30,960 bases of DNA, taken from NCBI GenBank assembly GCA_009602725.1, contig WELB01000034.1, positions 669,940 through 700,899 on the forward strand, in the 5' to 3' direction. Of this stretch, positions 861 to 26,600 are shown in pieces. Both the position numbers and the translations under genes were made by a program. Below the pieces are notes generated by a model, which was given only the letters and a program-made list of their open reading frames with translations, had not been told where the DNA came from and did no database searches. The stretch is from Spirogloea muscicola. Lineage: Eukaryota > Streptophyta > Zygnematophyceae > Spirogloeales > Spirogloeaceae. How positions within the stretch are numbered: the stretch's first letter is position 1; every line of letters begins with the position of its first letter.

Positions 861-863
861 TCT

Positions 864-2110: not shown

Positions 2111-2323
2111 GTGCTCGCTTATAGAGAAGAGGTGCTGGCAAAGCCAGCCCGAAAAGAATGGGACAATGTCCAAAGCCAAAGAAAAGAGGTGTCGAAAAAA
2201 GGACTACACCTCAAAACACTACAAAACGCAAGACGATGCAAAGGGAAGCTCAGTACCCGCGAGTGAGCAACATCCGGTCGGAGTAGCGCGCTGCAGGGAA
2301 GAAGTGCTCGCTCATAGAGAAGA
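2111..2323 (-). mobile_element. Composite repeat module: hairpin + 3' tail of a retroelement-like ORF
   Basis: About 210 bp. From left to right on the plus strand it holds the leader GTGCTCGCTTATAGAGAAGAG, the stem-loop (2132-2150), the second palindrome GGACAATGTCC (2161-2171), a roughly 70-bp A-rich block, and the complement of a short coding tail. On the minus strand the tail reads YSDRMLLTRGY and stops at 2250-2252. A new leader starts near 2302. The layout and sequence match 3101-3300 and, more distantly, 18328-18510. I infer a truncated retroelement 3' end read on the minus strand, with the A-rich block as its 3' untranslated region. Confidence 0.65.
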
Positions 2324-2400
2324 CAGTGATATGTAGCTGCTTTGTTTCTTGTTGTGCTTGCTTTTTATAGCGCTTCCCCTGGCCCCCTTCTCGTACTTCG

Positions 2401-2545
2401 TTCATTCTTTTTTGGGCTGGCTATACCAGCCCCTATCCTCAGTGGGCGAGCCCTTCGGGCTGAGAAAAGCGCGCCCATAGAAAAGAGGGGCTGGCCAAGC
2501 CAGCCCAAAAAAGAATGGGCTGGCCTCTCCCAGCCACCAGTTACT
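2401..2545. repeat. Two hairpin modules in opposite orientation
   Basis: The reverse-orientation copy 2401-2453 has stem GGGCTGG at 2414-2420, loop CTATA and CCAGCCC at 2426-2432. It is followed at once by a forward copy with a perfect stem at 2488-2506 (loop CAA) and then a third stem at 2518-2536 (GGCTGG, loop CCTCTC, CCAGCC). The stem is kept while the loop differs in all three. The forward and reverse copies also make a larger imperfect inverted repeat. Confidence 0.8.
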
Positions 2546-3095
2546 CTGGCCGCGCTTGCTTTCTCTTGCCGCGCAATCCCGGCTGTTGATGGCGATGTTG
2601 AGCGGCACCAGCGTGGCGGCGTGCACTGAGTAGGGAAGCCGACGAGGGCGGGATCCGGGGGGGCCCCGTATCGTGCGGCCTGTCGCGGCCCGGGGGCGGC
2701 GCCACCCGCGCAAATATCTTCCCACCCCGTGCGCATTCTCGTCCCGTTTCCGCGGAACTCGCGGCGCCGCCGTGCCATTCGACGAGGCGAAGCGGCTCTC
2801 CCGCTCTATGCTCACTCGTGGGGTTCCGACGATCTTAGCCTCCTTAGCATAAGGCTTCGTCTGATGTAGCCCCAGTCTCTGCACTAGCTTTTGCAAGTTC
2901 CTCGAACTTGCGGCTGCTGACTCGGGATCACTAAACTTTCATTTGCTGTAGTCTTCTGCAGAGCTGTGTGGTTTTGGCACCATCCGGCATCTTGGACCTT
3001 GTCCACTTTTTTCATTGAGCGCCAATTGTTGACATCTTTCGGAGTAGTATCCTGTTTTTTGCGCCATCTGGCCCATTCTGTAGTACCTTGCATAG
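2546..3095. other. Intergenic DNA without a recognised gene
   Basis: The first half is GC-rich and the second half is mixed. Short minus-strand ORFs cover it, but I recognise no family in them. A segment near 2964-3010 (TGTGTGGTTTTGGC... GACCTTGTCCA) resembles 4130-4170, so part of it belongs to the same repeat complex. Confidence 0.45.
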
Positions 3096-3100
3096 AAGAA

Positions 3101-3400
3101 ATGCTCGCCATGGAGAAGAGGGACTGGCAAAGCCAGCTCTAAAAAGAATGGACAATGTCCAAAGCCAAAGAAAGAGGAGCCGGAAAATGGACTACACCAC
3201 AAAACACTACAAAACACGTAGACGATGCAGAGGGAAGCTCAGTACCCACGAGTGAACAACATCAGGTCTGAGTAGCTCGCTGCAGGGAAAGAGGCACTCC
3301 GCCGAGACCCAGAGGCGGCGGCCATAGCGAGAAAGGGCTCGCCCATTGAGGATAGGGGCTGGAAAAAGCCAGCCCAAAAAAGAATGAACAAAGGACGAGA
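3101..3400 (-). mobile_element. Composite repeat module with the longest in-frame hairpin-tail ORF
   Basis: The left part is a hairpin module (leader ATGCTCGCCATGGAGAAGAG, imperfect stem near 3121-3139, palindrome GGACAATGTCC at 3150-3160). The middle is the same A-rich block as 2172-2249. On the minus strand 3239-3433 is open for 64 codons and ends AASYSDLMLFTRGY with stop at 3239-3241. The right hairpin (GGGCTGG at 3356-3362, CCAGCCC at 3369-3375) lies inside this ORF. So two hairpin modules in the same orientation flank the coding tail. The tail includes an AAASGSRR block that recurs at 3459-3560 and 12035-12060. I read this as a 5'-truncated retroelement copy; the start of the ORF is not meaningful. 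Confidence 0.65.
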
Positions 3401-3458
3401 CGGGGCCAGGGGAAGTACGAAGAACAAGCACAAAAAAGAAGAAGCAGCTACGAAGCAC

Positions 3459-3908
3459 TCAGTAACCCCTGCTAAGCAGCCTCAGATCAGAGAGACTGGG
3501 TTCCTGGAAGCGGGTCCCCTGGCCAGAGCCAGAGGCAGCAGCGAGGGCTCGGCCTGCCCACAGGTGCAGCGCCATAGAACTCTGCAGCGAGACGGCCAAG
3601 CGCATGCGGTACACCTGCGCAAGCGACCCTGCTGCATGGGAGTCCACCGGCTCCCCATGGAAGCGGCGGACAATGGCGTGGCGTGAGAGCTGGTTGAGCA
3701 GCTCGAGCCACCGAGCGCCCAGCGCCCCGTGCGCCCCGTGCGAATCGATGGCGAGCGGGAAGAACTCGTCTTCCCGCGCGTGATCTGCGTATTTTAGCAC
3801 GGCCTGCTCGCGTGTGGACGGCGTGGGCAAGGGAGCGTTGAAACGATACAACCAGGCGAATGCGGAAGACTTGGGTGAGCGAACCGGCGGCGTGTTGAAG
3901 CCGGGCAT
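3459..3908 (-). pseudogene. C-terminal fragment of a non-LTR retrotransposon (reverse transcriptase-type) protein
   Basis: A minus-strand ORF of 149 codons, the longest coding remnant of the repeat complex. In the middle it shows REQAVLKYADHARE, then EFFPLAIDSHGAHGALG, then a Leu/Arg-rich helix region (LAQVYRMRLAVSLQSS). This order (K.KYAD..., F.PLA.D..G..G, then R..LSV.LQ..) is what follows the reverse-transcriptase domain in many LINE-type proteins. That is family knowledge recalled, not searched. The end, GRALAAASGSGQG...SLSDLRLLSRGY-stop, is the same tail seen in six shorter copies elsewhere in the window. No catalytic RT motif (YADD-type active site) is present, so it is a 5'-truncated, non-functional copy. 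Alternative: the C-terminus of another transposon protein. Confidence 0.6.
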
Positions 3909-4125
3909 CGCCCCTGGCAGACCCGGCCGCCGGACAATGGCCTGGCCTACCTTGTCAATTCTTTTCGGGCTGGCTTCTCACAGCCCTTGCCCCCATTGGG
4001 AGAGCCACTTCTTCTTCTGGCGGGCAAGCCGCTGGAGTAGATCCAGCCAGCGGCTGCCGGAAGCCCGTGTACATCCATCGCCAGGGCATTGACCGGCGGC
4101 TGGGTCTGCCAGGGGCGATGCCCGG
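3901..4125. repeat. 33-bp inverted repeat enclosing a second retroelement fragment
   Basis: Bases 3901-3933 and 4093-4125 are reverse complements over 33 positions with one mismatch (CCGGGCATCGCCCCTGGCAG ... CCGCCGG). The 159 bp between hold a reverse-orientation hairpin module (GGGCTG at 3967-3972, CAGCCC at 3981-3986). On the minus strand they also hold a degenerate fragment NALAMDVHGLPAAAGW (about 4040-4092) that resembles the PLAIDSHGAHGALGARW segment of the neighbouring ORF. This suggests an inverted duplication or nested insertion of two element fragments. Confidence 0.7.
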
Positions 4126-4430
4126 CTGTGTGGTTTAGGCGCATTACGGCCCTTTGAACCTTGTCCATTTGTCTTTGGGCTGGCCTTCCACAGCCACTGC
4201 ATTGAATTGAATTGAAAAGCTGTTTAAAGTTTTCAGACCTTGTGCATGTTTTTGGGCCTGGCCTTTCACATCTTCCGGCCCCTCCGTCATTTGGCCCCTT
4301 CGAGCCTTTGTCAATGCTTTTCGGGCTGGCTTTTCACGGCCCTTGCCCCCATTGAGAGAGCCGACTTCTTCTTTTCGGCCCCTTTGGACCGTGTGCTATC
4401 CTTTTTGACCTTTCTTTTTGGCCTGAACAG
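4126..4430 (-). repeat. Cluster of reverse-orientation hairpin modules
   Basis: At least three diverged modules in reverse orientation: ACCTTGTCCATTTGTCTTTGGGCTGG...CAGCC (4160-4195), TTTTTGGGCCTGGCC...CGGCCCC (4250-4287) and TCAATGCTTTTCGGGCTGGC...GGCCCTTGCCCCCATTGAGAGAGCC (4311-4362). A further decayed copy follows at 4376-4430. They end about 750 bp upstream of the J-domain gene. Confidence 0.65.
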
Positions 4431-5185
4431 CGCCTTGGCTAAAATTGGCCACCGTTTCATTCCATGTGCACCGCGCGCCGGAGCCTTCCCTCGCTAGCGA
4501 CGCCCTGCGACCCGGTGGCGGACCCACGTCGCCCCGCGCCCCGGCGATGTCGCCGAAGCCCCCCCGACGACCCCGGCGAGTCGCCGCCAGGTGTCGCGCC
4601 CTCCGGCGGCCCCCCAACCGGGTCGTTTCGCGGACCTTCCGCCAGGTCCCCCCTCCCGGCCCCGGAGTCCGACGCCGGCGTGGTTTCTTTTTGAGAATAC
4701 GACGCTGGTGCAGATTCTTCCGGGCCCCCTTCAGCGGGACCTACCCCGCGCCGAGGAGCTTCCCGGCTTTCGCGCCGCCAATTCAGGCCAGCCGCCACCG
4801 CCGCCGTCGCCGCCGCCGCCGCTGCCGCCGGAGCCTGGCTCGGTGCCACGTGGCTCCGCTTGGCGCCCCCGCCCCGCCGCGTTCCCGCCTCGCCCTATAG
4901 GGCCACGCCGCTCGCCGAGGCGCCGGCGGTCCAGCCATCGTCGGCGACGCCATTGTGTCGCTAGCTTCGCTGGCCCGGCCGCGGCGGGGCGCAGTGCGGC
5001 CTAGCCGAGGCGCGAGGGACAGCGAGTGCCGGCACCACCGCCGCTGCCGCCGCCGCGTGCGCGGGGAGCTCCCCGGCGCTCGCTCGCTGTTGCCGCGGCG
5101 ATGATGTGACCGGAGACGCGCTGCGAGGCTGCCACCGCCGCTGCCTGCTCGACCGCCAGGTGGCCCCCGCGGCCGCGCCGCTCCG
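4431..5185 (+). promoter_or_regulatory. GC-rich 5' flank / probable promoter and 5' UTR of the J-domain gene
   Basis: Very GC-rich sequence with a (CCG)n-type run at about 4797-4832, directly before the J-domain start codon. Overlapping Pro/Arg-rich frames are open here, but none joins the J-domain exon by consensus splice sites with recognisable protein content. I therefore treat it as promoter and leader. No TATA-like box or defined operator is evident. Confidence 0.4.
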
Positions 5186-7714
5186 ATGGAGTGCGAGCGC
5201 GACGGCCCGCGGTGCTTCTACCGTGTACTGGGGATCAGCAAGGGGTGCTCCGCCGACGACATCCGCTCGGCGTACAAGCGCCTGGCCATGGTGTGCGCCT
5301 GCTCATTACGTCGCTACCGACCAATCTCCCGACGGCGCAAGTAGAGATGCTTAGGCGTGCACAGACGCGCACGTTGACCAGCTGCGCGGCCGTCAGACGC
5401 GTGGTGCAGCCAGCGAGTGCCTGCCCTAGCAGCCTCCTCGTTTGTGTCACCAGGCCTGCGCCTGGCAGTCCCTGGCCTTCTCCTGTCTTGGATAGGTCCA
5501 CATGGATACGAACGGAATTTCAATGTCTTGATGGTGTGAAAGATGTCTCTGGGAATGTAGCCCTAGTGTTTATGAGTATCTTGTGCATCGTGGTCGAGGC
5601 AATGCCACTGGGCAACATTATTCGCCACCTTTTCCTGCATTCAGAAGTGGCACCCTGATAAGTGCGGCAAGGACCTGGAGGTAGCCAAGCACGCCTTCCA
5701 GGCGATCCAGGAGGCATACTCTGGTCAGTTGTTTGGCCATTGCACCATCTGGCCCACCAGCAGCCCATCAGCTAAATCCTGTCGAAGACAACCAAGATTT
5801 GATCTCATTACTTTGATCGAAGTTGCACAGACAGCATGTAGAATATGAATGAGGATGATGGACTTTCTGAGCAGAAAATTGGGCCTAATATTCTATTGTC
5901 AAGGAAGGCTACCCTGCTGTCTGATGGTTGAGAAGTGGTCCATGCTTGTGGTGTTCGAAACTTAGTATTGTCGGATGACAATAAGAGAAGTCGCTATGAT
6001 CTTGGCATCCTGGAGTCAGATGAGGAAGAGGACACTGGGCAAGTAAGCCCTCCACTGCTCCACCCACTTTTAATCTATTTTTGAGTTACTGCAAGTTGTT
6101 GTTTGTTGTAACATCCCCGTACTGCAGAATGGCTCTTGGTTTAGACTACTGAGTATGCCTTGCCCGGTCCAGGATGTGACTGATATGGACGGGCTGATGG
6201 CTGAGCTGACTGTCATGATGGACGACATGATGGACATGAAGTGCAAGGTCTGCTGTGCTGTTCTCGACTCCTTTAGACTTGGATGCGACAAGCACCCACA
6301 TTAAGTTGATATTGTTATACTGTTGCTTCAGTAGTTGGTGTGTACTCCTCCTGATAGTGGCATCCATGCAGTGTCGTCATTGCTCATTGCTTGTGGGCTT
6401 TACTGCAGAATTTCGCAATGCCCTTTGCGGCTTGCTCAAGCTCACAGGCATGCACGAAGCTGGAAAGTCAGGCGCAGGACATCCTTCTGTCCTCCTTTCT
6501 GAGTGCTCATGACTCTCCGAGCAACAGCGTTAGCTGTCCGAGCCCCGCAGAACCGTGGGATGCGAAGAATGAATTGATGCAAAGCTTTATGGAGGTTCAC
6601 GTGGAGAAGGTAGTCCCTTTTGTCGCTCATATCGCTGCACTCTTGGCTGGCTGAGTTTGTACAGCTCAGCATTAAGAAACTAATGACAACATGACCTACT
6701 CAGACTTACCTAGATGAGTGACTTCATTTTCCGCTGTCCTCTGCAGGATGCCATTGGCAAGCTGACCTGCATCTTGGACGGCGTCAGTCTCTGCACGCTG
6801 TCGTTGATGCGGCAGCACTTTGACAATGTTCACATGGAGGATGCTGAGGACTGGTTAACGGTGCGCGGAACAAGCACTGCTGCCACAACTTAGAGTCATG
6901 TGCTCAGACGACTTGCTGCTGCAAGTGGCTGAAGCATTATGACCTATTTTCTGACTTTGTTGTAACCACAGTGTCTGAGTGTATCACACGCACAATAAGC
7001 TGATGAAAGACTGCACTCTTGTCTATACCAGGACATGCAACAGGAGAGCCTGGACCATCTCAGCGACTTGATACAAAGCATGATGGTTGGGCCGTCTCCT
7101 CACTGCAGCTTTCTTCCCAAGCAGAGTCAAGGAGGCGGTGGCTCCTGCGGCCCGGGGCCCTGGTCAGGGGACCTCTGTAGAAAAGATGGGAGCGACATTG
7201 TCAATAAGGCCTCCACCAATTCGTCGACAAAACAGGAGCACCACAATCAGCACACTGGCCACGCACACGCTGCGCATGCTGCTGACAGTGCAGATGGAAA
7301 CTTGTGCTCATCCGTCCTTAGAGACGGGATTTGTGAGGGGGCCACCTCCTCGCAAGTGGTCACCACTGCCGCACCAGACCCTGAGCGGCACGGATGCGTC
7401 CACTCAGAGCAGGTGCCTGCTCTGAATGGGTGTACAGAAGCGCGCTTCTGTATGGGGGTGAGTCACCAGCTGCTCTGACTGATGCGTGAGAAGCTCTCCC
7501 ATGATGTAGCTGAGCTTTGGCATTTCTCACACCCCCATGGCATGGCGCGACTGTCCAGATGGCGTCTGATGTTCATAAGGAAGCCAGGCAGGTCCGGAGC
7601 AAGAAGGGACGGCACAGCCCAAAGAATGTGGTCCCTTCATCATCCCCAGCTGCCACAACAATCAAGCCCAGCTCAATGACGGCCAGCTCAGGTGCCTGCC
7701 TTGCCGCTGTATAG
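5186..7714 (+). CDS. J-domain (DnaJ/HSP40) co-chaperone, 410 aa, 8 exons
   Basis: J-domain proteins stimulate the ATPase of HSP70 partners. Exons: 5186-5290, 5645-5723, 5966-6042, 6173-6247, 6409-6609, 6747-6860, 7032-7457, 7559-7714; all introns are GT-AG and the phases join without a break. Residues 10-78 make a complete J domain: CFYRVLGISKGCSADDIRSA, then KWHPDK with the HPD triad at 38-40 split across intron 1, then QEAYSVLSDDNKRSRYD. A Met/Asp-rich segment follows (GLMAELTVMMDDMMDM, about 110-125), then long low-similarity regions. These include a His/Ala-rich stretch in exon 7 and a basic region at the start of exon 8 (RQVRSKKGRH). There is no zinc-finger or CTD of type I/II DnaJ, so it is a class C (type III) J protein. 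The start is the only ATG before the domain. The J-domain call is firm; the client is unknown, and the exon 7-8 junction is the least certain. Confidence 0.85.
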
Positions 7715-9242
7715 ACTCAGCAGCTTCTGCTGGCTGTGATCTGCCTCAAGTGGGCTGTCATTTCGGAGCAAGGGTTATGTGGGATTGGACAGCCATGCTC
7801 GCAGATATTGTTGGCTATTGCCGACAAGTGGTTCCCTCTGTTGACGTACTCCCATTATGTAGAAGCCCCCCCCCCCCCCACACCCTCATCCCTCGTTGTG
7901 TCTAGAAGACAACGAAGCCCAATAGGTTGTGGCTGTAAAACAATGCTGAACGGCTTTTTTGTGTAGGCCCTCCCTTAGTGCAGGTGTGACAAAAGGTTGT
8001 ATTACACTTTTCTTCAATCCTTCAGGTGCCATGTTGTATGGTGCTTTAGCTCTTGGATTGCTGGTATCACAGCCCTTATCCATTACTGGCCCTCATTGGC
8101 CATTCTTTGCCTGCAGGATTATATAAATGTCCAGGTTCACTTTCCGTAAGTCAGTTCAAGTGGTCATGGTTTGTCCTACGGTGGTTAGGCGTGCCAGAAT
8201 GCCGGGCTTTTGTCCGCAAAGTTATGTTTGAGGACTGCATTTCATACCTTGATAATATGACAAGTTGCTGCATTGATACATGCATCTCTATCAGCGCTTC
8301 ACGACAGCTTTTGTTGAGCAGCTCGGGCTTTTCAAAGAGCAATACCTGTTAAGGTCCTTGGCTACTTGCAATCGAATACCCATTGTGAGCTGCCCTCAGG
8401 CTGACGATGTGTTTGGCTAAATTCTCAAACCCTACCTCTCATGTAAGCTGCAGCTAATAAGGGATGCAGCATGTCTGAGGAGATGGGCATGCTTTTCTAC
8501 CCCTGAGCAGAACAATGTTTGCCTGCTGGCTGTGTAAGCGGGCCTGCTTCTCTGTCTTGCAGGCATGGCAGTGGCCTTGAGCACAAGTTTTAAGGGAATT
8601 ACTCATGTCGATCAGACGAATCAGACAAACTGGGCCGAGAGCATCTCAGCCCTGCTGGATACAAGGGCGTGCTCGTGGTAGAGCTGAAGAGTACCACAGG
8701 CCAAGTCGAGCTCATACTTGCTCAGATGGCCATTTGCCGTCACTTGCAGTACTTGCAACCTGCATCTTGCAATGACGCTGTGTCAGCTATCTGCTTGCTG
8801 CCCGGCAATGTTGCTGCACTTGAACCTGAGTGCGAGCAGTGCTGTGGCAATGAACAAGGCCAGCGATGCAGCAATAGGATGTTGGAGCATTGACCTGGGC
8901 GGCTTTCCTCCTGTTACTGTGTCCGGCTCCTCTGGACCCATGCTGGGCTCTGCCACAGTGCAGAGACTGGACGAGGCACACGGGATGCAGCATGAGTTCG
9001 TCCAGCGACGGCACGTGCTTGCTTGAACGCGCGCACAGGGCAACATGCTGCACCTGTGGAGCCTCTACTGCAAGCATAACTAAAGCACATAATGGAGGTG
9101 GGCACCTAGCATCATGTGCATATCCAAGCACAATACAGGACAGCCCATGGACAAGCAGTGCTCAGTGGCAGCTCAATAGCTTGAGGCTGGATAAAGCACA
9201 GATGATGAACGATGGAGAAGCAACATGCTGAATGTCAAATGG
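7715..9242. other. Spacer between the J-domain gene and the ATG18-like gene, no gene recognised
   Basis: About 1.5 kb between two convergent stop codons. It contains a 14-base C tract at 7866-7879 and several short ORFs on both strands that match nothing I recognise. It must hold the 3' UTRs of both neighbours. An additional 3' coding exon of the ATG18-like gene could lie here, because that protein ends earlier than plant ATG18b. No hairpin modules are present in this spacer. Confidence 0.5.
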
Positions 9243-11196
9243 CTACTCTGGAATTCGGACGCGCCTGCGGGTGCCGCTTGGGCAGCTGTGGCGCAAAGTG
9301 GCGAAGCATCTCTCCTCTGCAGCCATCACTGATGCCAGGGGCCCACTGTAAAGTGCAGACAGCAGTTCGCAGCATGGTGCAGGGGATGCACGTCAGGCCT
9401 GGCGCTCTTGAATGGCAACAAGAGATGACTGCTGTACCCCAGACGATATCCAGCAGGCCCTGCAAATCAGTTATTCAGTGCAGCACCCTCTCTTTGTGGG
9501 GCCATTGCCAAGCTTGAAGACGTGCAGTGTCCCAGACCCGCACGTAGTGGCGAGCACTAACGGCAGGCCAGCAGTCGCCGGCCCAAAGGCCAGCGAATAG
9601 ATCGCGGCAGGGTACATGCCCCGTCGGAGGGTAAAGACCTGGATGCAAAGTGCACAGCGGGGTGCACCATGCTCAGAGTGCAGCAAGGACAGTCACTCAA
9701 GTCCAGGCCTGGAGATCCTGAACACTTGTTGTGACTTTGTGCTGAAGGTCTAGAAAAGACTGCAGGCAAAGTTACAGGAAATGAGTCGGAAAGGATGCGC
9801 CGCTGGCAAGTGCAGCGGTGTGACAAGGGGGAAGGAGGGGGGGAGGGGGGCAGGGGCGACCTTGGCTGCCTGCGGCATGGAGAAGACATAGACGAGCGTC
9901 CCGGTTGTTGATGCGGTAGCGAGCAGGGAGCCGTCCCGTGAGAATGCCATGGCCGCTACGGGCGAGTGATGCGCATCGACCTGCGCCCACCTTGTCAGGA
10001 CATGAGGCAGCCGTTGCTCCTAGTCCTCAACATCAGAATCACAGCAAAACCAATCTCTGACCTTGGAGTATCTGGCACGGGGAGGCTGATGAGTACAGCT
10101 CAACCGAGCGAGACGGCGGGCACACCGGACCTGGCAGAGCGCCTGGGCCTCGAGGGCGTCATGTATGAGCACGGAGCCCGAGTGGAGGCCAGCCGGCGTG
10201 GCCAAGTAGCACAAGCCCGTGCAGCTGGAGTCGCTCAGTGCACACAGCCCTGCCAACAGTGGGTGCGAGGCCCCTGGTCAAGAGCTATTGCCATGAGGAG
10301 CCACATGATGGGATTCAGGCGTTGACGAGATGTATGTGACTATTAGCACATGCATGCATCAGCGATCATCTGTCAGAGGCCAGCCTCCATGGTGGCGGCC
10401 ATGTGGGATGCGCAAGGGGAGCTCTGCTTGCAGCAGCCCAAAGTTCTGTCGGTCGACTGGGGCCCTCTGAAGGACAGTGCCAAAAAAATCTGGAATAGTG
10501 GTTGCCGTTCATTGCCCCTGAAAGGAGCAGCAGTAAGAAGGTGCACCAAACCTCGCGGATTTGCGGCCGTGTCGATCGTGGCAAACGGCGCTTCGAGGCG
10601 CGCGAGGTCGAAGACGTGAACCCGCACCTCCAGGACGACCGCCAGCCTGCACCCACCAACAGCACAAGAGTCAGCTGGTTTGCCTTTGTTGGATGGTTGC
10701 GAGGCAGCCGCCAAGTGCCACTGGCAGGCGGCCATGCTGCTGGAGGAGGGTGGACCTCGTGCAGTTTGCGCGGACGCCCAGAACGGAGGACGCAAAGCCA
10801 ATCTCAGCGGTGGTGGCGGCAGTCGCCTGCTCGGACGTGTCCACCAGGCTGAGCCGCCGCGGCGACAAGTCCGGCTAGCAGCAGCAGCGGGGATGGCCGC
10901 CATGAGAGATCGCGTCAAGCTGGATCACACAAAGCCGGAGCGACTGGAGACCGGATCTCAAGATGGTGAAGTCTGGGTCTTAGAGAGGGGAGTGAGTTGA
11001 GCCCGTGGGCTTCGGAGCGGCACCTGCTCACCGGCGCCGACGACGGCGACGAGGCCGGTGGTCGACAGCGGCTCTGCGATCGCCAGCCCGGCGACCACTG
11101 CACCGCCGCTGCCTCCCGTTAGGCGCTCGAGGCAGGCAGCCATTCGGCTCTGCGCTGACGCTGCAGTTGAGGAGCTAGCGCAGACGGCGTGGCGGA

Positions 11197-11229
<33 letters not shown>

Positions 11230-11585
11230 TGCGGTTCTCACGGCGGCTCCGGTGGATGCATGCGCCGGTGGCGGCCTCGAAGACCCGGAAGCCGTCCCGC
11301 GTGGCCAGCACCACACGACTGGCAGCAGAGGCAGGTCGCGCGGCGACGGCGGCGGCGGCGGCCTCAGCAGGCCGGCAAACCACCGCCGCCGGCAGCATCG
11401 TGGCCGTCAGCCGCGGCGGCGACGGCGGCGCAAGCAATGGCGGCGGGGTCGGCGCTGCCGCGGCGCGCGCCGCGAGAAGCGGCCACTGCCGTTGATGGGG
11501 TTTCTGTGCTGTTGGGCGCGCACCTGCCGTCGTGGCCGAAGGACGCGTACAGCACGCCGCGGTCGGACGTCGCGGCCACGTTCAT
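9243..11585 (-). CDS. ATG18B: ATG18b-like PROPPIN (WIPI family) autophagy beta-propeller, 327 aa, 9 exons
   Basis: PROPPINs bind PI3P/PI(3,5)P2 on autophagosomal and endosomal membranes. Exons in coding order: 11585-11524, 11318-11242, 11160-11024, 10874-10756, 10646-10552, 10249-10131, 9980-9861, 9638-9487, 9345-9243; all GT-AG with continuous phase. Diagnostic blocks: GVLYASFGHDG and VVLATRDGFRVFEAATG (blade 1), VGAGEQPDLSPRRLSLVD (the GEQP.LSPRRL string is typical of plant ATG18b), VVLEVRVHVFDL, GSVLIHDALEAQ, and VDAHHSPVAAMAFSRDGSLL. The lipid-binding motif is LRRG at residues 247-250, in place of the commoner FRRG. The C-terminus (EERCFATLRHSCPSGTRRR) is shorter than in plant ATG18b and may be incomplete. 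The start ATG lies just downstream of a (CGG)n leader. Head-to-head with the PUM24-type gene across a repeat-filled spacer. Confidence 0.85.
11166..11235 (-). repeat. (CCG)n microsatellite inside an ATG18b-like intron
   Basis: The second intron of the ATG18b-like gene (11241-11161 on the minus strand, gtgaga...ctgcag) is 81 nt long. A CCG run at about 11199-11229 makes up much of it. The frame stays open through it, so intron retention would insert a poly-Arg stretch between blades 1 and 2. Splicing is preferred because family proteins have no insertion here and the junction phases agree. Confidence 0.65.
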
Positions 11586-11586
11586 G

Positions 11587-11760: not shown

Positions 11761-11935
11761 GGGCGAGCCATTCCTTTGAACCTTGTTCAATCGTCTTGGG
11801 CTGGCCCTTCACTGCTACTTCTGTCAATTCTTTTCGGGCTGGCTTTTCACAGCCTTGTCAAAAAGCAAGCGCGGCCAGATTAACTGGTGGCTGGGAGAGG
11901 CCAGCCCAAAAGAATGGACAAGGTCTGAATGAGTC
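11761..11935. repeat. Three hairpin modules, two reverse and one forward
   Basis: Two reverse-orientation modules (TTGTTCAATCGTCTTGGGCTGG.. at 11783-11815 and GTCAATTCTTTTCGGGCTGG..CAGCC at 11822-11855) are followed by a forward copy near 11885-11925 (GGCTGG, loop GAGAGG, CCAGCC, then CAAAAGAATGGACAAGGTC). Reverse and forward copies together can pair into a larger foldback. They lie in the divergent ATG18b/PUM24 promoter spacer. Confidence 0.75.
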
Positions 11936-11971
11936 GGAGAGCTAAGGACTGAGACAGCAGTAAGCGAACTC

Positions 11972-12130
11972 TCAGTAACCTCTCGTCAGTAGATGCAAAT
12001 CTGAGTAGCTAGCAGGCGGAAAGACGTCGCCCTGACAGAAGCCGGAGGCCGCCGCCAGAGCGCAGAAGAGGGGCTGGCAAAGCCAGCCCAAAAAGAATGG
12101 ACAATGTCCAAAGCCAAAGAAGTCTGATTC
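11972..12130 (-). mobile_element. Composite repeat: perfect hairpin module fused to retroelement C-terminal tail
   Basis: On the minus strand the tail reads CALAAASGFCQGDVFPPASY then SDLHLLTRGY and stops at 11972-11974. Directly upstream of it (higher coordinates) is a textbook hairpin module: GGGCTGGC at 12071-12078, loop AAA, GCCAGCCC at 12082-12089, then GGACAATGTCC at 12099-12109. The tail is the same peptide as at 3459-3560, so the hairpin replaces everything upstream of the last 34 or so codons. Confidence 0.7.
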
Positions 12131-17405: not shown

Positions 17406-17900
17406 CAAGGGTTCACAATGGCAGCTTGTACGCTTTCTGAGGGGCTCTGGCGGCCAAGAGATCTCGCAGCATCAGATTGCTGGCTCAAATTCTCATGCTG
17501 TAAAGGTACTGACATGGCCGCCTATTTGCTTCAGCAGCAGCTGCTCTTGCAAGCTCTGTGGAGATAGCTGCAGCTTGTCTGTGCAGCGGACTTGCGCTTG
17601 AGGCGGTGCGGGCTACTGCCCTACTGTGGCTTTGATTGCCTTTGCCTCGGTTGTCTGATTCTTTGGAGGCCGCTTCGCCTAACATCTATCCTCCAACTAC
17701 AGGCCTTTGGGCCAGGGGCTGGCCGCCGTTGCTCTAGGCCTCAATGTAGTCTCTCGCTTATGGCAGGTCATGTGCGGCCACAATTGCAAGGTTCATCGAG
17801 CACCGCGCCATACCAGGTGGCTATCAGGTGTATCAAGGAGTACAGGAGTTACACTTCCTGCTCAATGCCTCAATGATAAACGGTTGCTCTTCTCTCAAGC
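17406..17900 (+). other. 3' flank of the PUM24-type gene
   Basis: Ordinary mixed-composition sequence after the stop codon, with no recognised gene. A TGTAA at 17499-17503 lies about 95 bases after the stop and could be a green-algal type polyadenylation signal, though one copy is expected by chance in this length. Confidence 0.45.
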
Positions 17901-17906
17901 CGCTTC

Positions 17907-17975
17907 AACCTTGTCCACTAGTATTTGAACTGGCCTTTCGCAGCCATCGCCCCTTTTGAAAGAGAGCTTTCAATT
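17907..17975 (-). repeat. Diverged reverse-orientation hairpin module
   Basis: ACCTTGTCCACTAGTATTTG is followed by AACTGGCCTTTCGCAGCC and ATCGCCCCTTTTGAAAGAG, which align with the reverse modules at 4160-4195 and 1127-1152. The stem is degenerate. 17976-18230 carries no recognised feature. Confidence 0.55.
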
Positions 17976-18234
17976 TCTTCCGCTGAAGCTGAGTACTATC
18001 CAACTTCAGCGCATGTCCTTGAGCACATGCCAGCAGCCAGCTCAATGTTTCTGCTCTCACTGCTCGGGTTGTCCACTTTTAGCATTCCCACCGATCACTA
18101 ACGACTGAAAGCCTGTGTACTGCAAGTTTTATGCTTGGGACCACGTGACTATGGGCACGAGCCGAGGCTAGACGTGGCGAGAGCTCCTTTGGGAAAAGTT
18201 GCAGAAGCTCCACTAATGAGAGACTAAGGCTGGG

Positions 18235-18560
18235 GTAATCAAGAAGCTCTTCCAGAATGGGCGATGGCTGTCAGAGGCCAGCCCAAAGATGGCAATTGCT
18301 CGCCCACAGAGGGTAGGGGAAAGAAAATGCTCGCCCATGAAGAAGAGTAGCTGGCAAGGCCAGCCCAAAAGGAACGGACACAGTCCAAAGCGTCAAGAGG
18401 TGCCGAAAAGGAAAGCCACACAGCTAGACAACACACGACCGCAGATAAAAGCTCAGTACCCACGAGTGAGCAGCAGCAGCAGCCCAAAGCTAAGTGCTCG
18501 CCCATAGAGAAGAGGGGCGGGCAAAGCCAGCCAAAAGGAATGTACAAGGTCTGAGAGGCC
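18235..18560 (-). mobile_element. Composite repeat with four hairpin leaders and a short retroelement tail
   Basis: Forward hairpin modules sit at about 18258-18285, 18328-18400 (AGCTGGC, loop AAG, GCCAGCCC, then GGACACAGTCC) and 18490-18550 (GGGCGGGC, loop AAA, GCCAGCC). Between the last two lies the same A-rich 3' block (GGTGCCGAAAAGGAAAGCC), then CTCAGTACCCACGAGTGAGC, the complement of LLTRGY-stop at 18453-18455. The order hairpin, 3' block, tail, hairpin equals that at 2111-2323 and 3101-3400. Confidence 0.65.
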
Positions 18561-18650
18561 GGGAGAAGGCGCGCGAAATTGAAAGGGAGGCCAATCCTAG
18601 CCTTATTACAAATGTCCTGTTAACTGGGTGATGAGCTAGCTAAGAGGGAC

Positions 18651-18760
18651 ACTAAGTATCCCCGAGTGAGCACATGCATATCTGACAAGCTAGGCTGAGG
18701 CGCCAAACCACCACCACGGAAGCCATTAGCCTGGGCTAATGCACGACCAGAGGGGGCAAA
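18651..18760 (-). pseudogene. Retroelement C-terminal tail copy without adjacent hairpin
   Basis: Minus-strand reading PSGRALAQANGFRGGGLAP then QPSLSDMHVLTRGY matches the tail of the 3459-3908 ORF over its last 35 or so codons, including the GRALA block. The stop is changed (reading continues LV), so it is decayed. This copy keeps the upstream coding junction that the hairpin-fused copies have lost. Confidence 0.6.
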
Positions 18761-18920
18761 GAAGACAGCGAAAGAATGGCCAAGGCCCCAAGGGCCGAGG
18801 TCCCTCGTATCGTTAGAACCCCCAGCCTCGGGCTCCCCTGGAACCGAAACCCACTGCAAGCCGGCCCGCCCGCCGCCGCCGCATGGCGGCCGCCTGCGCC
18901 GCCGCCGCTGCCGACGGCGG

Positions 18921-18921
18921 N
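18921..18921. other. Assembly gap marker (single N)
   Basis: One N inside a (GCC)n-like region at about 18867-18922. True gap length unknown. It probably hides the first exon, with the membrane anchor, of the SRP receptor beta gene that follows. Confidence 0.8.
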
Positions 18922-19077
18922 CGCGCCGCGCTCCCGTCGCCAGCTTCCCATTCCGGCGCCGCGCGGCGACGGCCCGTGCCGCCCCGGGAAAGGCATGAGA
19001 AGGCCGTCTAAGGCGTTGCCGCCTGGCCGGGTCTTGCGCTGACGGCGGCCGAGAGCTCCGGCGCGCGCTGGCTGCAG

Positions 19078-20286
19078 TCGTGCGATGGCTGCTCGGCGGC
19101 GGCCGTGGCGCCAAGGCCGACACGGTGGTGCTGGCGGGCCTCTGCGGCGGCGGCAAGACCGCCCTCTTCTACCAGGCCAGCCCGCCGGGCCTTCTGGCCA
19201 CGCCGCTGCGAGGCTGGCCGCCGCGCCGCCGGTGGCCACTGAGGCCGACGTGGGTCCCGTGGCGCTTGGCCTGCAGCTGCAAGACGGGACGACGCACCAG
19301 GGCACCGTGACGTCCATGGAGCCCAACGAGGGCCGCTTCCCGCTGCACTCGGAGGTGGCCAAGGTGAGCTGCTGATGGTGATAGCGACGAGGTCCTGCGG
19401 CCGAGACTGGCAGGCACACGGGGATGGTGCCGGGTCTGATCGGAGCTGGGGGGGTTCGATGCGCCTGTAGAACCCCAAGGCGCGGCCGGTGCACGTCCTC
19501 GACGTTCCTGGGCACCCGCAGCTCCGGCCGAGAGTCATGGAGGCCCTGCCGCGCGCGCGGGGCCTGGTCTTCGTCATCGACGCCCTCGACTTCCTCCCCC
19601 ACATCCGGGACAACGCGGAGTAAGTCGGCGTTTCAACAGTGCTTTGCATGAGTACGCTGTTATCCACTCCGTTTTCTGCGGACAGTAGCATTCCTGCTCA
19701 AGTTCGGCGATCCTAAGCTGTGGCATGTTTTGTGGGTAGCCTTCACATGGACAAGGGGGCTAGCTCTTTGCTCTGATGGCCTGGCAATCCATGTAGGTTC
19801 TTGTACGAGCTGCTCACCACCAAGGTGGTCGTGAAAAGGCGCATACCAATACTCCTCCTCTGTAACAAGATGGACAAGGTCACCGCTTACTCGGTGGACT
19901 TCATTCGCAAGCAGCTGGAGAAGGAAATGTGAGGTTATTTCCTCGTTCAGCCTCCAGCCGTTTGCCAGAGAGACATGGCAAGCTTGTACTCTTGTACGTG
20001 TACAGCATATTAGAGGCATTGATATGTTATTCCATCATGACAGTCTCTAGTCCCTGTCACCAAGTGCCACATTAATGATACTTGCCTTTCTTGCAGTGAC
20101 AAACTGAGGACAAGTAGGAACAGTATTTCAGAGGCAGACATTGGTACTGATGTTAAGCTTGGGGTCGAGGGCGAGGCGTTCAAGTTTACCCAGTGCGCCA
20201 ACAGAGTCACAGCAACTGAGGCCTCGGTGCAGAACGGGAAGATTGCAGACGTGGAGGCCTTCATCAGGGAGCTCGTGCGGGCCTGA
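19078..20286 (+). CDS. SRPRB: Signal recognition particle receptor beta subunit (SRPRB), 5' partial, 5 visible exons
   Basis: SRbeta is the ER-membrane GTPase that anchors SRalpha and helps deliver ribosome-nascent chains to the translocon. Exons: 19078-19175, 19277-19363, 19471-19619, 19797-19928, 20097-20286. G-motifs in order: P-loop GLCGGGKT after KADTVVLA, switch I region THQGTVTSMEPNEG (hallmark of SRbeta), DVPGH (G3), CNKMDK (G4), and the C-terminal DIGTDVKLGVEGEAFKF. The end EAFIRELVRA is typical. No in-frame ATG lies ahead of the P-loop, and the usual transmembrane helix is not visible, so the first exon is missing, probably at the N at 18921. The first intron (19176-19276) has a GC donor (CAG|GCCAGC) and CTGCAG acceptor; without it LFYQ cannot join LQDGTTHQG in frame. 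The other three introns are GT-AG. Identity firm; 5' end unresolved. Confidence 0.87.
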
Positions 20287-20907
20287 CCGTGGCCATGGAG
20301 TGTGTCAACACACAAGCGGCTCCTCAGCGCCCGATTAGAAGTAGGCCAAGAAGCTTAATTGCAAGCTTAATTTGGCCACATGAGCGTCATACAAGGGCGA
20401 TGAGGAATTGCTCATTCCCGCAGATCGAGCATTGCCTTTTCACCAAGCAAGTTACACATGCGTGTATGCTACTGGTGGTCAATGATGAGCATGCCTTGAA
20501 GATCCAAAGCCGTGCAACAGATAGATGATGCCACTGAGTGTTCACGTTGCACATTCATAAGCAGGCGGGCTAAAGCAGGTTGGGTGACCGTGCGTCCACA
20601 TGGCCGAAGATAAGATCTTGCTACGGGTGGTACAATGATGAGCATGCCTTGAGAATCCAAGTGCAAAGCTCATACATAAACACTCTGTGAAGAAGTGATT
20701 AGTATCGGCAACCTATTAATTACGAGGGCTGAAGCAGGCAGGTAGTGCTTTTGTGTACACATAGCTGAAGATTGGACATCTGCAAGTGTTGGCAGACTAT
20801 CTGCAACAGTCATAGGAGAGGTACACTTGCAGGCACACCCAAATAGGAATTCCTGCTCCCCTTGTGCGGTCCTGACTTTTCACCCAGCAATCGGGGTTTC
20901 AGAGTCG
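20287..20907. repeat. Convergent 3'-3' spacer holding a diverged tandem duplication of about 153 bp
   Basis: AATGATGAGCATGCCTTGA at 20481-20499 recurs at 20634-20652, and both are followed by a variant of GATCCAA. Further in, GGGCTAAAGCAGGTTGGGTG with CCACATGGCCGAAGAT (about 20567-20612) matches GGGCTGAAGCAGGCAGGTAG with ACACATAGCTGAAGAT (about 20728-20773). So two diverged units lie head to tail. No gene is recognised. Both neighbouring genes end here. Confidence 0.6.
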
Positions 20908-23900
20908 TCACGGCAATTTGAAGTAAGTGGTGTAGCTCTCATCCCGGAAGTCCGCAATGGGGAAAAGCAAAAAGTCCCGGTACGAGCCTTGCACTACGAA
21001 GCTCCGGTCTGGAAATCTAGCAAACGGGCCCGCCGACAGCCGGAAGCTGCTCGCATGCGCAAAAGCCTCGTCACTCTGGCCACTTTGTGGACCTCCGAGA
21101 AGGCCAAGCATGGTGTGTGACTCCTCGGGGGCACTGCCAGAGTGGGACCCCATTGTGTCGACTATGGAGAGGTAATGGTCGGGCATGCCGATCACTGCAA
21201 AGGAGACGGTGGCTGACCCAGAAAGACCCGGCACGATCTGAAACGTGGTGCGGTCCTTTGGCGTCACTGCGGCAGGGCCGGCCATGAGGAGTGGGGCCAC
21301 CCTCTTGCGCCCAATGGACGTCATAAGGCCCCAGAGAGACCGCAGCAGCCAAGACCGCTGAACCAGCGGCTGGTCGTTGCGGTACTGCGTAGCCCGTGCA
21401 GGGTCCATGACCAAAAATGGCCTCCATGCTCCCTGGTGGACGACGAACCGGCCAGGGCGGTCAAAGAGCTCCAGTGACACGAGCTTCCCTAGCAGCCGGG
21501 AATGGCTGGCCCCAATGCTGTCCTCCAGATCAAGGTCAGCGCGCCTGAATTCAGGATGCGTCGAGTATAGGCCCTGCTGGCACTGCAGCTTCCGATGGCC
21601 AGCTTGGACTCGGACTGGCAACTGAGGTTGTTCCACCTCCCAGTGGAGCCTGATTGTAGCAGCTGCGGCTTCATCAGTCCCTTCAAGTGGTGTACCCGGG
21701 CTGCTGATCAAGTGCCTCCCAGACCTTCGGAGGTGGCTGCGTCCATCGTGAGTGACCAGAGAGATCAGATTACTGTTGGCGTCCGAAGGTACGGGGCTGA
21801 GGTTGAGTGGATGGACTAGCTGGCGGTCGCTGTCGGTCAGGCCCGCCAACAGGAAGGGCCCGAAGAGGATGCTCTGTAGCGAGGAGAAGGCCGGCCTGTC
21901 ATCTGCAGCTACATGAAAAGATGTCATCAGCAGTGGTGTTGCTTTGCTCTCGATTCCATGCTGAGCAACCACTCTACAACATTGCATGTCTAGCTGTGGC
22001 GAAAAAAATTGCGTAATTCAAGTAGATGAGCATCAGTAATAAATACGCTGATGGTGACCATGACCAGTACAAGCATCGACTTCACAAGAGGATTGTGGGC
22101 GAGGCGCAGGACCTTGGATGCCTTCTGTGCGAATTGTGAGAGAGATGTTGAGCTTGAGCACCCCTCCGCTAACCCAATCTCTCCGGATGTTAAGGAAGCT
22201 CCCTGTCAGCAATTTATACAGATGGGCGAATTTAGTCAAAGAGAGCCTCACATTAGGAATGGCTGCTGCATTCAGAAGCTTTCTGAGCGACCTCCACCAC
22301 TACCTTACGAGGAGGCAATGGCCTCAAGGTAGTACGCGGCTTTCCTATTTGGTGCTAATCGCAGGCTTCACATTAAGAGTGGTTGGGACATAAGTTGCAG
22401 CTCGCTTAGTTTGCAATTTGCATACCTGCTGATGGGAGCTGCAGCTCCTCACCATCAAGTTGGGCGTATGAGGTTCCCAAGTCGGCCCACAGAGGAATGC
22501 GGACATTGACATCAGTCGTCAAGTTGCCTGCTGTCTGCTGCATGACCAAATAGTTCGCTTCAGGTGTATTTGATATTGACTGTAGGAATTGACCCCAATC
22601 AAGCTACTCGAGCCACATCTTGCACAACATCATGCAACCATGCAGGCTGTAGTTACTCACCTGTCTACCTTTGAGCTTGGAGATGGTTAGAGTAACTGCA
22701 TATGCAGCAGATGTTGCTGTTGGAAGCAGTACAGTCTGCTCCAATCTCAAGCCAGCCTGCCGCCATTGTAGCGTGCTAGAGACATACTGGATGATGTAAA
22801 GCGTGGGTGAATCCAACGAACCCTGGAAGTAAATTGAGTCGCCCAATTTGGAGAACGACTCAACTCCTGCCCAGGCCATGGCTCAACAAGTGGTCATTCT
22901 CCAGTCAACTGTCAAGGCGAGCGACGTGGACTTGCTGCAGGATCACCAAGAGACTCTTCAGTGCAGTCTACTGAGTTAATGTATTGGATAACATACATGA
23001 GCAGTACATACAATATGAAGCAAGACAATAGAAGGTTGCTGACAATGACAGTTTGGAGAGAGGGCAAGTGCTATGAGCCTGCCTGAGCCATAGCAGCACC
23101 AGAACGAGTCAAAGGGATTGCCCCAGCCATGATACCCTCTCGCTTTTGAGTTGCCGGCTCCCAGTGGAAGCATGTAGATCATTTTTCCAGGCTCTGTACC
23201 GCGCTGCGTGCCCATGATGCCATTTATAATGTTCCTCTCATAAAACTCTGCAAAGGAAGCGTCCCTTGTCCATCGGAACAGATTGCGAGACACCTGCATG
23301 TTGAGAGGATGAGGACACTCATCACTGTGCCACAGAAGAGAAGCGTGGTGTTGCTCAAAGGGGATAATGTCAAATTGATGACACTAACTTGAAAGGTTGA
23401 GAAGGCCAACATGGACAGCGGTGGGCTTAGAAGAAGGATATGGCCGCCTAACACCTCAGCGATCGGGGTACCTTTAGCATGTTATAGGTTGTGCAAGACT
23501 CCTGGTCCTCCTGCTGGAGAGTGTCGCCCAGGCGATGAGGGTCCTCCCTATTTACGGCAAGTGAAGCTCATTGGTGAGCACCCACATCCTCCTCCATAAT
23601 CTGTGGCATGCATCCAGAGCTTCAAGCATATAGAGCTGACTTATATTTCACATTACCACAGGGGAAGAGCAGTGCTTGCCAGAACTCCCAAGCGGAGGTA
23701 CCGCCAGTTGTGTAGCGGTGTGATGTGTTGACTGCGTGCATGAAGTTCTCAGCAATGTTCTGCCACCCAACAGGGAGCACAAGATAATGGGGCACAAGTA
23801 GCAATAGGCACTCATCTACCATACAGCGCCAGAAGCTGGCAATGGATCCAGTCAAACTGCTTCCACATTGTCCTGCCACCTGAGCGGCCTCTACCTTGTA

Positions 23901-26024
23901 AACCTCGTCCCCAGTCAATTCGTACCGCAGCTGTACTCCGACTATGATTGGGATGTGCGTGTTTGAGTGGTACCCAGCTAGCTCGTCGACCTGCACTATT
24001 GAATAAAGGACATGACTCAAGGATGCTATTTCAGCCTCCTCATCAATATGTCCAGCGCAGTGAATGCATGGATTTCTCAAGAAGGTGCAATACTTCCTTG
24101 CAAGTGTTCCACTCACCAAGCAAGCTTTGGCCTCTGACAGAGGTCAGACTTGATCCAATTATTACAATGCAAGAGCACCGGAGATAACCAAAATGTGGAG
24201 GACCAGACGCGGCAAATGTGTACCAAACACAAAACATGCCCATTATCTTGCCCTTGCCCAGCATAGGAGCTCTCTGACATAAGCCCTCCTGCAGAAGGAC
24301 GGCACCAGCTGCAGGGTTTGGTTTTTTACAGAGCATTGCACCTCAAGCGCAAGTGGGCCCAGGAAGCACGGCTTGTCGAAGAGGTGCGCCAGTTTCAGAT
24401 ACGCTGGGTTCTCCTACAGATTGAAGGAGGCAAGGCAGAGGCCTCAAGCACTGCTGACGGCAACCTGACTATGGACTGCTGGTTGAAGCAGCTGAGACCC
24501 ACTCATCAGTCGCTAAAGAAGTTGCAAGCAAGCTGGCAGGCAGTGAGTGCAAAACCTCAGATCACCATTGCAATGACAAACTTGCAAGTCTGGAGTTGCA
24601 AGGCTTAGAGGAAGGACCGTGATGTGATAGAGGCGGTAGAGGACATCGTTCATGCCGCCAAACTCCTCGTTCAGGGACCGCCAGTGGCGCTCGATCGTGA
24701 AGCGCTCAATGACGGCCTCCACACGCACACGGAAGTAGTCTGCCATGCGCGTTGCCATGTTGAGTGCCAGCTCGCTTCCAGCCAGCTCATACTGGTCCAC
24801 CAGGCCTGCAATGATCTGTGCATTCCCCCAGCGTGGCAACTCACAGTGAGATCTTCTAATTCCCGCTTGTGGACTGTTTCTCAGCCATGGATCAACCTTA
24901 ACTCATAAATATACAGCAATTGAGGGCAGGTAAGGTAGACCTTGTGAATGGTGTAGTATGGTGCCCAGACGGGCTGGATAGCCTCGACGCGGTCAAAGAG
25001 CTCCGTGGGAAAGGCCGAGAGATACCCAGTACCAATTTTGTCCTGGCATTCTTTGAGTGCGGCCACCAGCGCCTCCATCTTTTGTTTGAGCACCGTGGCG
25101 TTGGTGCTCGCCCACATGAGTGCCGTTGCACTGAGGTAGTGACCTGCCAAAATAAACACCCGTCAGTGTCTACCATGTTCACAGCGGGTGCTTGCTTAGA
25201 CAGCTTGAACATAGTGTGAGTGAATCTGGCATTTGGAGTGGATGCACTGAAGACCCATGTTTTCTAGATTTGTGGGATGATGCCGAGTATGCTTGCGACG
25301 TCGTAGCACTGTCAAGCTTCTTCATTCAGCACTTCGAAGGTGCTCGACAGAGGACGAAGAACCCACAAGTCTTCACATACTTGCCTCCTGAGAGTAGATC
25401 ACCGAAGCATTTCTTGCTCATTCCGTAGAGGAGCGATACGACACCGCTTGGAAAGGCGTCTCGGCAACTCACCAACAAAGTGGCCACGCAGCTCCGAGGC
25501 AGGAGCCTCCCAGCCGCCGTAGGGGCTGCCCAGCGCCGGCAGGCCCGCCGTGGTCCTGTCGGCTCATCGAACATCATCAATGAGGCGGACAAAAGCAATA
25601 ACAATCACACGTATCCAATTTCGCTAAGACCATGGCTTATAAAAGGGCTTGCGCCGTATACACTGCCGTCACAGCAAGCGCGGGCTACTAGTGGGGCGCA
25701 CCGGAAGCTCCACAACAGGCGGTCGACGTCGAGCAGGAGCAGGTACGCCAGGTTGGTGGCCTGCGCCACCGCCTGGGGCGAGCCCGCCGCCAGCCGCACG
25801 TCCGCCAGCGGCACGTCCGCCAGGAACGCCTTCCCGCCGCTGCCGAGCATGCGGCCGCGGCCGCCATGGCCGTTGCCGCCGGTTCCCAGCAAGCCCAGCT
25901 GCGTCGGGATGTTGGTACACTCCTTGGCGGCAGCCGGCTTGGCCACGGCAAGCAGGAGGAGGTGCAGCAGGGCCTGCAGAGCTGCGGCGCCCACTGGCAG
26001 CCGCGGCAGCGACAGGCTCGCCAT
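20908..26024 (-). CDS. Secreted GH127/DUF1680 beta-L-arabinofuranosidase-like protein with C-terminal AbfB-like domain, 916 aa, 13 exons
   Basis: GH127 enzymes release beta-L-arabinofuranose from cell-wall glycoproteins; the plant members are less well characterised. Exons: 26024-25702, 25555-25473, 25143-24941, 24815-24618, 24413-24342, 23990-23895, 23759-23680, 23547-23472, 23293-23083, 22866-22661, 22537-22426, 22202-22113, 21908-20908; phases join throughout. Residues 1-33 look like a signal peptide (QALLHLLLLAVAKPAAA) before KECTNIPTQL. Family blocks: PYGGWEAPASELRGHF, WAPYYTIHK, GGMNDVLYRLY, YHSNTHIPI, TGGTSAWEFW, QESCTTYNMLK, WCCYGSG. E368, C370, C443 and C444 match the zinc/nucleophile cysteine cluster known from GH127, and E350 sits where the acid/base Glu would be (inferred by spacing). 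The last 160 or so residues resemble an arabinose-binding AbfB domain (SFVVQGSYRDFLLFPIADF). The N-terminal region is shorter than in land-plant homologues. Introns 7 and 9 are GC-AG. The ATG at 26024 is the first in frame; an upstream GTG is not used. Confidence 0.88.
22867..23082 (-). other. GC-AG intron 9 of the GH127-like gene
   Basis: Exon 9 ends GGCTCAG and the next bases are GCAGGC. The following exon starts after CTGGGCAG and completes the codon (G+GA) to give CCYGSGVESFSKLGDSIYF, an unbroken family signature. No GT lies near the donor that would preserve the frame or the conserved motif. Confidence 0.8.
23548..23679 (-). other. GC-AG intron 7 of the GH127-like gene
   Basis: The donor reads TTCTG|GCAAGC, close to the GCAAGT consensus of GC introns, and the acceptor is AAATAG. 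Joining gives WEFWEDPHRLGDTLQQ then ESCTTYNMLK in frame, as in the family. A GT further downstream would leave an extra LLFPC segment and break the frame of the next exon. Confidence 0.8.
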
Positions 26025-26162
26025 GGCCGCCTCCCTGCCTCCGCCTCCTCGGCAAGCGGCCACCCTGCAACCGCTGCCCCCGCAGTGGCTTACTGCAAGC
26101 TCTCATTTGGCACAGCAACACTAATTCCCGACGAATTTTCGACTCTGCACTTGGAAGTAAGC

Positions 26163-26164
<2 letters not shown>
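26025..26164 (-). promoter_or_regulatory. Proximal 5' flank of the GH127-like gene
   Basis: About 140 bp between the start codon and a poly(T) tract. GC-rich next to the start, AT-richer further out. The start codon sits in a strong context on the minus strand (GCGGCCATGG). No TATA-like box is convincing. Confidence 0.35.

Positions 26165-26198
<34 letters not shown>
26165..26198. repeat. Poly(T) tract of 34 bases (poly(A) on the minus strand)
   Basis: A pure T run. Read on the minus strand it is a 34-base A tail located 162 bases after the stop codon of a retroelement coding tail (26361-26363), which also reads on the minus strand. That is the order expected for the 3' end of a LINE-type insertion. 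Confidence 0.8.
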
Positions 26199-26600
26199 CA
26201 GCGTGAGAAGGAGCGCTGTGGGCATGGGAGGAAAGGAAGGCCAGATTGAGCCAATGAACTGTTCAGGCAAAAAGCTAGTGCGAAATCGGGAGTTACATTA
26301 ATTAAGCCCTATGCCGAGGCAGGCTGAAGTAATTGTGAGGCTGCAGCTGAAGGGGGGACGTCAGTACCCACGAGTGAGCACATACAAATCTGACAGGCTA
26401 ATCTAGTGGCAAGGAGGCGAGGGCTGTGGAAGGCCTGCCCGAAAAAGAAGAAATTGCTCGCCCATGGAAGAAGAGGGGCTAGCAAAGCCAGCCCAGAAAA
26501 GAATGGACAACATCCGAAAGGCCACAAAACGGTGCCAAAAAGGAAAAACTACACAACTGGACACGAAAAGGATGGACAAGGTCCGAAGGGGCCGGACAGC
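26199..26600 (-). mobile_element. Probable retroelement 3' end: hairpin modules, coding tail, 3' UTR and poly(A)
   Basis: On the minus strand, from high to low coordinates: a diverged 3' block with GGACAAGGTCC near 26573-26583, a hairpin module at 26456-26515 (GGGCTAGC, loop AAA, GCCAGCCC, then AAAAGAATGGACAA), a second stem at 26420-26440, the tail SLSDLYVLTRGY with stop at 26361-26363, about 160 bases of 3' UTR, and the A34 tract at 26198-26165. This is the only copy in the window with a clear A tail. No target-site duplication was recognised. Confidence 0.6.

Follow-up and report, generated by a model that had tools for sequence, protein, structure and literature searches.

The 30,960-nucleotide stretch of the Spirogloea muscicola genome analyzed here (contig WELB01000034.1, positions 669940-700899; hereafter the window) carries seven copies of a short coding tail built around the peptide LTRGY. 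A six-frame motif scan of the window placed all seven on the minus strand, ending at 2250, 3239, 3459, 11972, 18453, 18656 and 26361, and found zero tails on the plus strand. Both the tails and their common strand had been reported in an initial annotation and were borne out at or near the positions given there; the tail put at about 18651 exists; it finishes in a Tyr codon at 18656, where the stop codon is missing (TAC TTA, as against TAC TAA in the relative L083). A search of the window with degenerate DNA for L-T-R-G-Y-stop, allowing at most one mismatch, gave four matches, every one at one of the tails (four of the seven), whereas shuffling predicted 0.02. As set out below, the tails are almost certainly the 3′ ends of 5′-truncated copies of non-long-terminal-repeat (non-LTR) retrotransposons, or long interspersed nuclear elements (LINEs), of the restriction-like-endonuclease, R2-like type in look and probable working. 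The tail-bearing copies are listed here with their identities to library elements (UTR, untranslated region):

2100..2304, minus strand: E/A-type copy, last coding codons and 3′ UTR; tail YSDRMLLTRGY-stop, read from the translation, ends at 2250; 84% identical to the L013-type element and 79% to L071.
3094..4087, minus strand: E-type copy that two later insertions have cut into three pieces; tail YSDLMLFTRGY-stop ends at 3239; 91-93% to the L013-type element.
3330..3798, minus strand: B-type copy within the E-type copy, comprising roughly the final 111 codons and the 3′ UTR; tail SLSDLRLLSRGY-stop ends at 3459; 83% DNA and 85% amino-acid (aa) identity to L082; 4-bp duplication GCTA.
11867..12063, minus strand: D-type copy, C-terminal codons and 3′ UTR; tail YSDLHLLTRGY-stop ends at 11972; 75% DNA identity to L084, and 91% over 22 aa by tblastn.
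18320..18479, minus strand: A/E-type copy, last 8-9 codons and 3′ UTR; tail LLLTRGY-stop ends at 18453; 73-74% to L071 and the L013-type element.
18563..18748, minus strand: C-type copy; tail SLSDMHVLTRGY, last codon at 18656, without a stop; 77% over 31 aa to L083 by tblastn (18748-18656, E = 1.7e-8).
26357..26401, minus strand: C-type-related tail SLSDLYVLTRGY-stop, ending at 26361; 89% to L083 over 45 bp.

Tails 3239 and 3459 form one nested pair, because the B-type copy was inserted into the E-type copy with duplication of GCTA. The three E-type pieces (4087-4017, 3946-3795 and 3328-3113) correspond to positions 736-807, 803-952 and 949-1164 of the L013-type library element and are collinear, with overlaps of 5 and 4 bp; the L071 match of the same copy extends beyond 3113, down to 3094. 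The second insertion is a 70-bp 3′-terminal fragment of a related family in the opposite orientation (3947..4016, plus strand; repeat family D7) with a 5-bp duplication, GCCAG. Both duplications come from one fetched locus (L001, window 740-4100). A 48-bp inverted repeat, 94% complementary, also lies here (3899-3946 against 4080-4127). A portion of the E-type open reading frame (ORF) occurs once in each orientation, the two separated by 133 bp, and an inverted partial duplication therefore accompanies the nested insertions. Elsewhere, the element match at the 18453 tail begins at 18479, so that only about the last 8-9 codons are element-derived, and the DNA matches of the C-type copy cover 18563-18602 and 18634-18724.

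We found full-length parents for these tails in the 153 Mb of genome searched (471 contigs). An 18-mer from the tail (CTCACTCGTGGGTACTGA, at most one mismatch) occurs 2084 times, and its reversed control does not occur. Translation upstream of the tail copies led into a long C-terminal domain, a 242-aa piece of which gave at least 155 scored matches; among those listed, eleven fall within frames of 1000-1800 aa that contain no stop (much longer frames, for example one of 10765, which may stem from masked stretches, were disregarded). The full-length ORF with the tail as its C-terminus, sought since the initial annotation, was found in four parents of 1350-1521 aa, each a single open frame: L071 (1406 aa; 1358 from the first Met), L082 (1350; 1299), L083 (1453; 1420) and L084 (1521; 1501). 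All four terminate in LTRGY or LSRGY before the stop, and the carboxy end of the full-length ORFs reads SDL-x-x-L-T/S-R-G-Y. L082 is the parent of the 3459 type, L083 of the 18656 and 26361 type and L084 of the 11972 type.

Over about 1000 aa, L082, L083 and L084 share 71%, 52% and 72% identity with L071, the four masters thus differing by 28-48%. Judged by these identities, the tails belong to at least four related families, and the single retroelement family first proposed for them was given up. A diverged relative with the tail DFLLLTRGY-stop lies near the start of locus L003, and a 3′ UTR ending in GGCTGGCTTTCACAGCCGCTC is found in L003 and L036 (near 134); the families therefore exceed the four parents. 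The ratio of nonsynonymous to synonymous change (dN/dS) between pairs of masters was 0.17-0.26 over the last 1000 aa, and dN was below dS in each pair with a computable dS (no dS value was obtained for two of the six 240-aa pairs and for one of the six 40-aa pairs). The masters are under purifying selection. The conservative amino-acid changes remarked on among the tails therefore reflect coding constraint that acted on the masters rather than on the window's truncated copies. Among the 150 B-type matches listed, 64 have one and the same score and identity, and seven of the 64 sit in frames of 1324-1357 aa; the B-type family has therefore likely undergone a burst in recent times. The copies in the window, at 73-98% identity to the library element closest to them, are for the most part older.

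The copies share a fixed 3′ end. At the tail-copy loci, upstream similarity stops 15 to more than 1000 bp away; in 152 distinct copies that reach the 3′ end, the distance between start and end ranges from 52 to 4546 bp. It is below 140 bp in 74 of these copies and above 3300 bp in five, four of which are the library elements' own loci. A fixed 3′ end with a variable upstream limit is a 5′-truncation pattern, as in LINEs, and the proposal that the tails are retroelement 3′ ends truncated at different points stood, now with full-length parents behind it. Six long-frame copies have a common 5′ start region (GCTAGGTCGAGG...), the bases directly before GCTAG differing in L076, and five of the six have a common 3′ end through GGGCGAGCCTTC, with L073 diverging after CTCTTTCTT. 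No LTRs or inverted-repeat-like ends were apparent in the parts of the full-length ends that were inspected by eye. The 3′ UTR of A and E contains a hairpin (GGGCTGGC-loop-GCCAGCCC), with shorter or altered stems in other families and a different stem in C, and the hairpin is followed by a short pyrimidine stretch, for example ACTTTCTTCT. In L082, the last ~35 bp of the 3′ end (GCCTATTCTCAATGGGCGAGCACTTTC...) stand twice in tandem. A 34-T run at 26165-26198, ~160 bp beyond the 26361 tail when read on that tail's strand, is probably unconnected with the element tail, because the full-length elements examined lack a long poly(A). Where one copy splits another, 22 of the 27 distinct sites show an overlap of 3-10 bp (24 of 31 when every row is counted; the filter admitted -5 to 25 bp), as expected for staggered cuts. 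Read by eye, and without statistics on target preference, the junctions of nested insertions showed no apparent common target.

The proteins fit the same picture. L071 matches the reverse transcriptase family RVT_1 in Pfam (E = 2.4e-13), and [YF]ADD is present in all four parents, whose single ORFs carry N-terminal C2HC fingers (two in L071, L082 and L084, one in L083). A profile of the four families matched solved R2 proteins with E values of 1.8e-8, 2.4e-8 and 1.1e-7, against 0.16 for chain 8c8j, an RNA-directed DNA polymerase that we take to be LINE-1, a comparison that covers the R2 chains and 8c8j. According to PMC5678591, the restriction-like endonuclease of LINEs has K-x2-K-Y, which holds its catalytic K, together with G-x-W and a CX2-3CX7-8HX4C knuckle. 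All four parents contain a knuckle, C-x1-C-x12-H-x3-C, as well as R-x-D-x14-D; K-x2-K-Y is present in three and K-x2-H-Y, with H in place of the second and less conserved K, in L083 (K-x2-[KH]-Y in all four), so that the endonuclease core is recognized by pattern only.

Several results weigh against this interpretation. The published knuckle spacing occurs in none of the four parents, and all four have G-x2-W at the place expected for G-x-W. L071, the sole protein scanned whole, gave no Pfam family besides RVT_1 at E up to 1, hence no endonuclease, and a single-sequence PDB search returned nothing at E up to 1. Because both searches came back empty, we assign the endonuclease from motif pattern and position only. 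A general search for duplications around 141 copies exceeded chance only slightly, with longest matches averaging 5.31, against 4.90 after shuffling and 5.15 in the largest of 200 shuffles. Finally, the hairpin is suggestive, not proven, because its minimum free energy z-scores vary from -3.85 to +2.50 (-3.85 to -0.70 in seven family representatives, up to +0.21 and +2.50 in window copies), and its folding energy is not unusual in every copy. Since the knuckle spacing of the parents departs from the published one, we claim likeness to the R2 group, not membership. The elements are new members of the LINEs, in several families and with a probably ordinary mechanism. In such a mechanism, the element protein would bind its own RNA at the 3′ UTR with the hairpin and, by its predicted endonuclease, nick DNA at a loosely chosen site. 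Target-primed reverse transcription would start from the RNA 3′ end and frequently halt early, leaving copies that retain the 3′ UTR and, in some cases, the last ORF codons; staggered cleavage would produce the short duplications. The elements may still be mobile.

The window also holds family fragments without a coding tail:

879..956, minus strand: B-type 3′ UTR fragment; 83-88% to L082.
1951..2001, minus strand: E-type 3′-terminal fragment; 90%.
2368..2456, plus strand: B-type 3′ UTR fragment; 90% to L082 over 2368-2455.
2462..2518, minus strand: E-type 3′-terminal fragment; 93%.
2516..2557, plus strand: D-type 3′-terminal fragment; 86% to L084.
4079..4127, plus strand: E-type ORF fragment; 94% to the L013-type element.
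4152-4198 and 11822-11854, plus strand: shorter, weaker family fragments.
12066..12121, minus strand: A/E-type 3′ UTR fragment adjoining the D-type copy; 98% to the L071 3′ UTR.
18486..18551, minus strand: A/E-type 3′ UTR fragment; 81-88%.
26437..26518, minus strand: A/E-type 3′ UTR fragment, located upstream of the tail that ends at 26361; 80-84%.

The description "always minus" thus holds for every tail and not for the families, whose fragments also occupy the plus strand of the window. Genome-wide, the tail 18-mer is balanced (1022 forward and 1062 reverse; binomial p = 0.39). Neighbors among the first 100 exact 18-mer places listed, of 2084 counted, lay on the same and the opposite strand 6 and 8 times within 3 kb, 11 and 12 within 10 kb, 12 and 18 within 30 kb, and 26 and 28 within 100 kb. 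A strand bias as a property of the families is contradicted by these counts and by the plus-strand fragments. The best reading of the single-strand run, held at first to be unexpected for random insertion (about 1 in 64), is that it arose by chance among copies that are partly linked, two of them (3239 and 3459) being nested; because genome-wide and neighbor orientations are balanced, no mechanism is needed. The 100 listed places are spread unevenly over the large contigs C1 to C13 (18 on C5, one each on C4, C9 and C11), which suggests regional clustering of the 18-mers.

The main alternative, which we consider improbable, would make the one-strand run the signature of a mechanism: preferential insertion into older copies at their 3′ tails, or RNA template jumping, would build same-strand, head-to-tail arrays. 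Template jumping is described for R2-type reverse transcriptase, and family sequence lies 22-50 bp downstream of 104 of 179 3′ ends (40 on the same strand, 24 on the opposite, 40 on both) against 251 of 3000 random points. This enrichment, strong at first sight, is not evidence of self-targeting, because the random points were by construction placed outside family sequence and the fetched loci are 50% family sequence, so that random insertion would yield nearly the same fraction. Moreover, the one nested pair of tails in the window records insertion into the ORF, and not the tail, of the other copy, and the neighbors within 3 kb are mixed in orientation.

Two further explanations dispense with LINE remnants. 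A single short mobile unit carrying the tail, akin to a short interspersed nuclear element or a miniature inverted-repeat transposable element, could account for the many 3′-end-reaching copies that begin within 140 bp and for the recurrence of lengths of 83 and 88 bp (nine times each). It is very unlikely, as the starts range up to full length, the tails are in frame with the 1350-1521 aa ORFs, the full-length ends look by eye unlike inverted repeats, and long intact parents with the identical 3′ end already contradict it. The idea that the tails belong to one host gene family with common C-termini, for example as alternative last exons, draws on the conserved C-terminal peptide and on one exon-like ORF of 172 aa in the window, and its chance is negligible: there are some two thousand copies of the tail 18-mer, nested copies have short duplications, the parents carry reverse transcriptase, and the full-length elements already refute it. 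We therefore retain truncated LINE copies as the explanation of the tails.

Host exons in the window match the Pfam families GH127 arabinofuranosidase and O-fucosyltransferase, with PROPPIN/WD40 and AbfB below the cut-off; no RNA families or transfer RNAs were detected across the window, and a 112-A run occupies its left edge (1-112). The exon-like 172-aa ORF (3462-3977, minus strand), taken by eye for a kinase exon, had no Pfam match and proved to be element sequence, a B-type C-terminus behind older E-type sequence. Such cases carry a warning for annotation, as some 100 codons left over from the 3′ end of a LINE may mimic a host exon.

In a narrow literature search, non-LTR retrotransposon and restriction-like endonuclease combined with Chlamydomonas, Volvox, algae or green alga gave no match, although the family may still be published; among viral contigs, 97 pattern matches included no confirmed relative. 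That the elements constitute an undescribed deep clade of restriction-like-endonuclease LINEs, with site-specificity lost, thousands of copies, the variant knuckle C-x1-C-x12-H-x3-C, G-x2-W and the conserved SDL-x-x-L-T/S-R-G-Y end, is a tentative idea that we think may well prove wrong. Most described restriction-like-endonuclease LINEs have fixed, repeated targets (PMC4640811). An abundant, dispersed set that seems to have been active recently is useful for learning how site choice is lost in such elements and how the 3′ hairpin they carry is recognized.

Among known systems, Dualen/RandI is known from a green alga. It carries a restriction-like endonuclease (PMC4640811, in excerpt) and adds an apurinic-like endonuclease, unlike L071, for which Pfam gave only RVT_1 at E up to 1. 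The Hero clade includes many non-specific families according to excerpts of PMC4640811, and the likeness of our elements to it, apparently non-specific insertion, is by description only. From the R2 group (R2, R4, NeSL/Utopia, Hero and CRE), as its features are defined in parts of PMC4640811, PMC5678591 and PMC3636483, the elements differ in showing by eye no obvious fixed target, in their knuckle spacing and in G-x2-W. They resemble it in having a single ORF with one or more N-terminal zinc fingers and a reverse transcriptase, followed by a CCHC knuckle and PD-(D/E)XK-like motifs with K-x2-K-Y, and their best PDB matches are R2 proteins.

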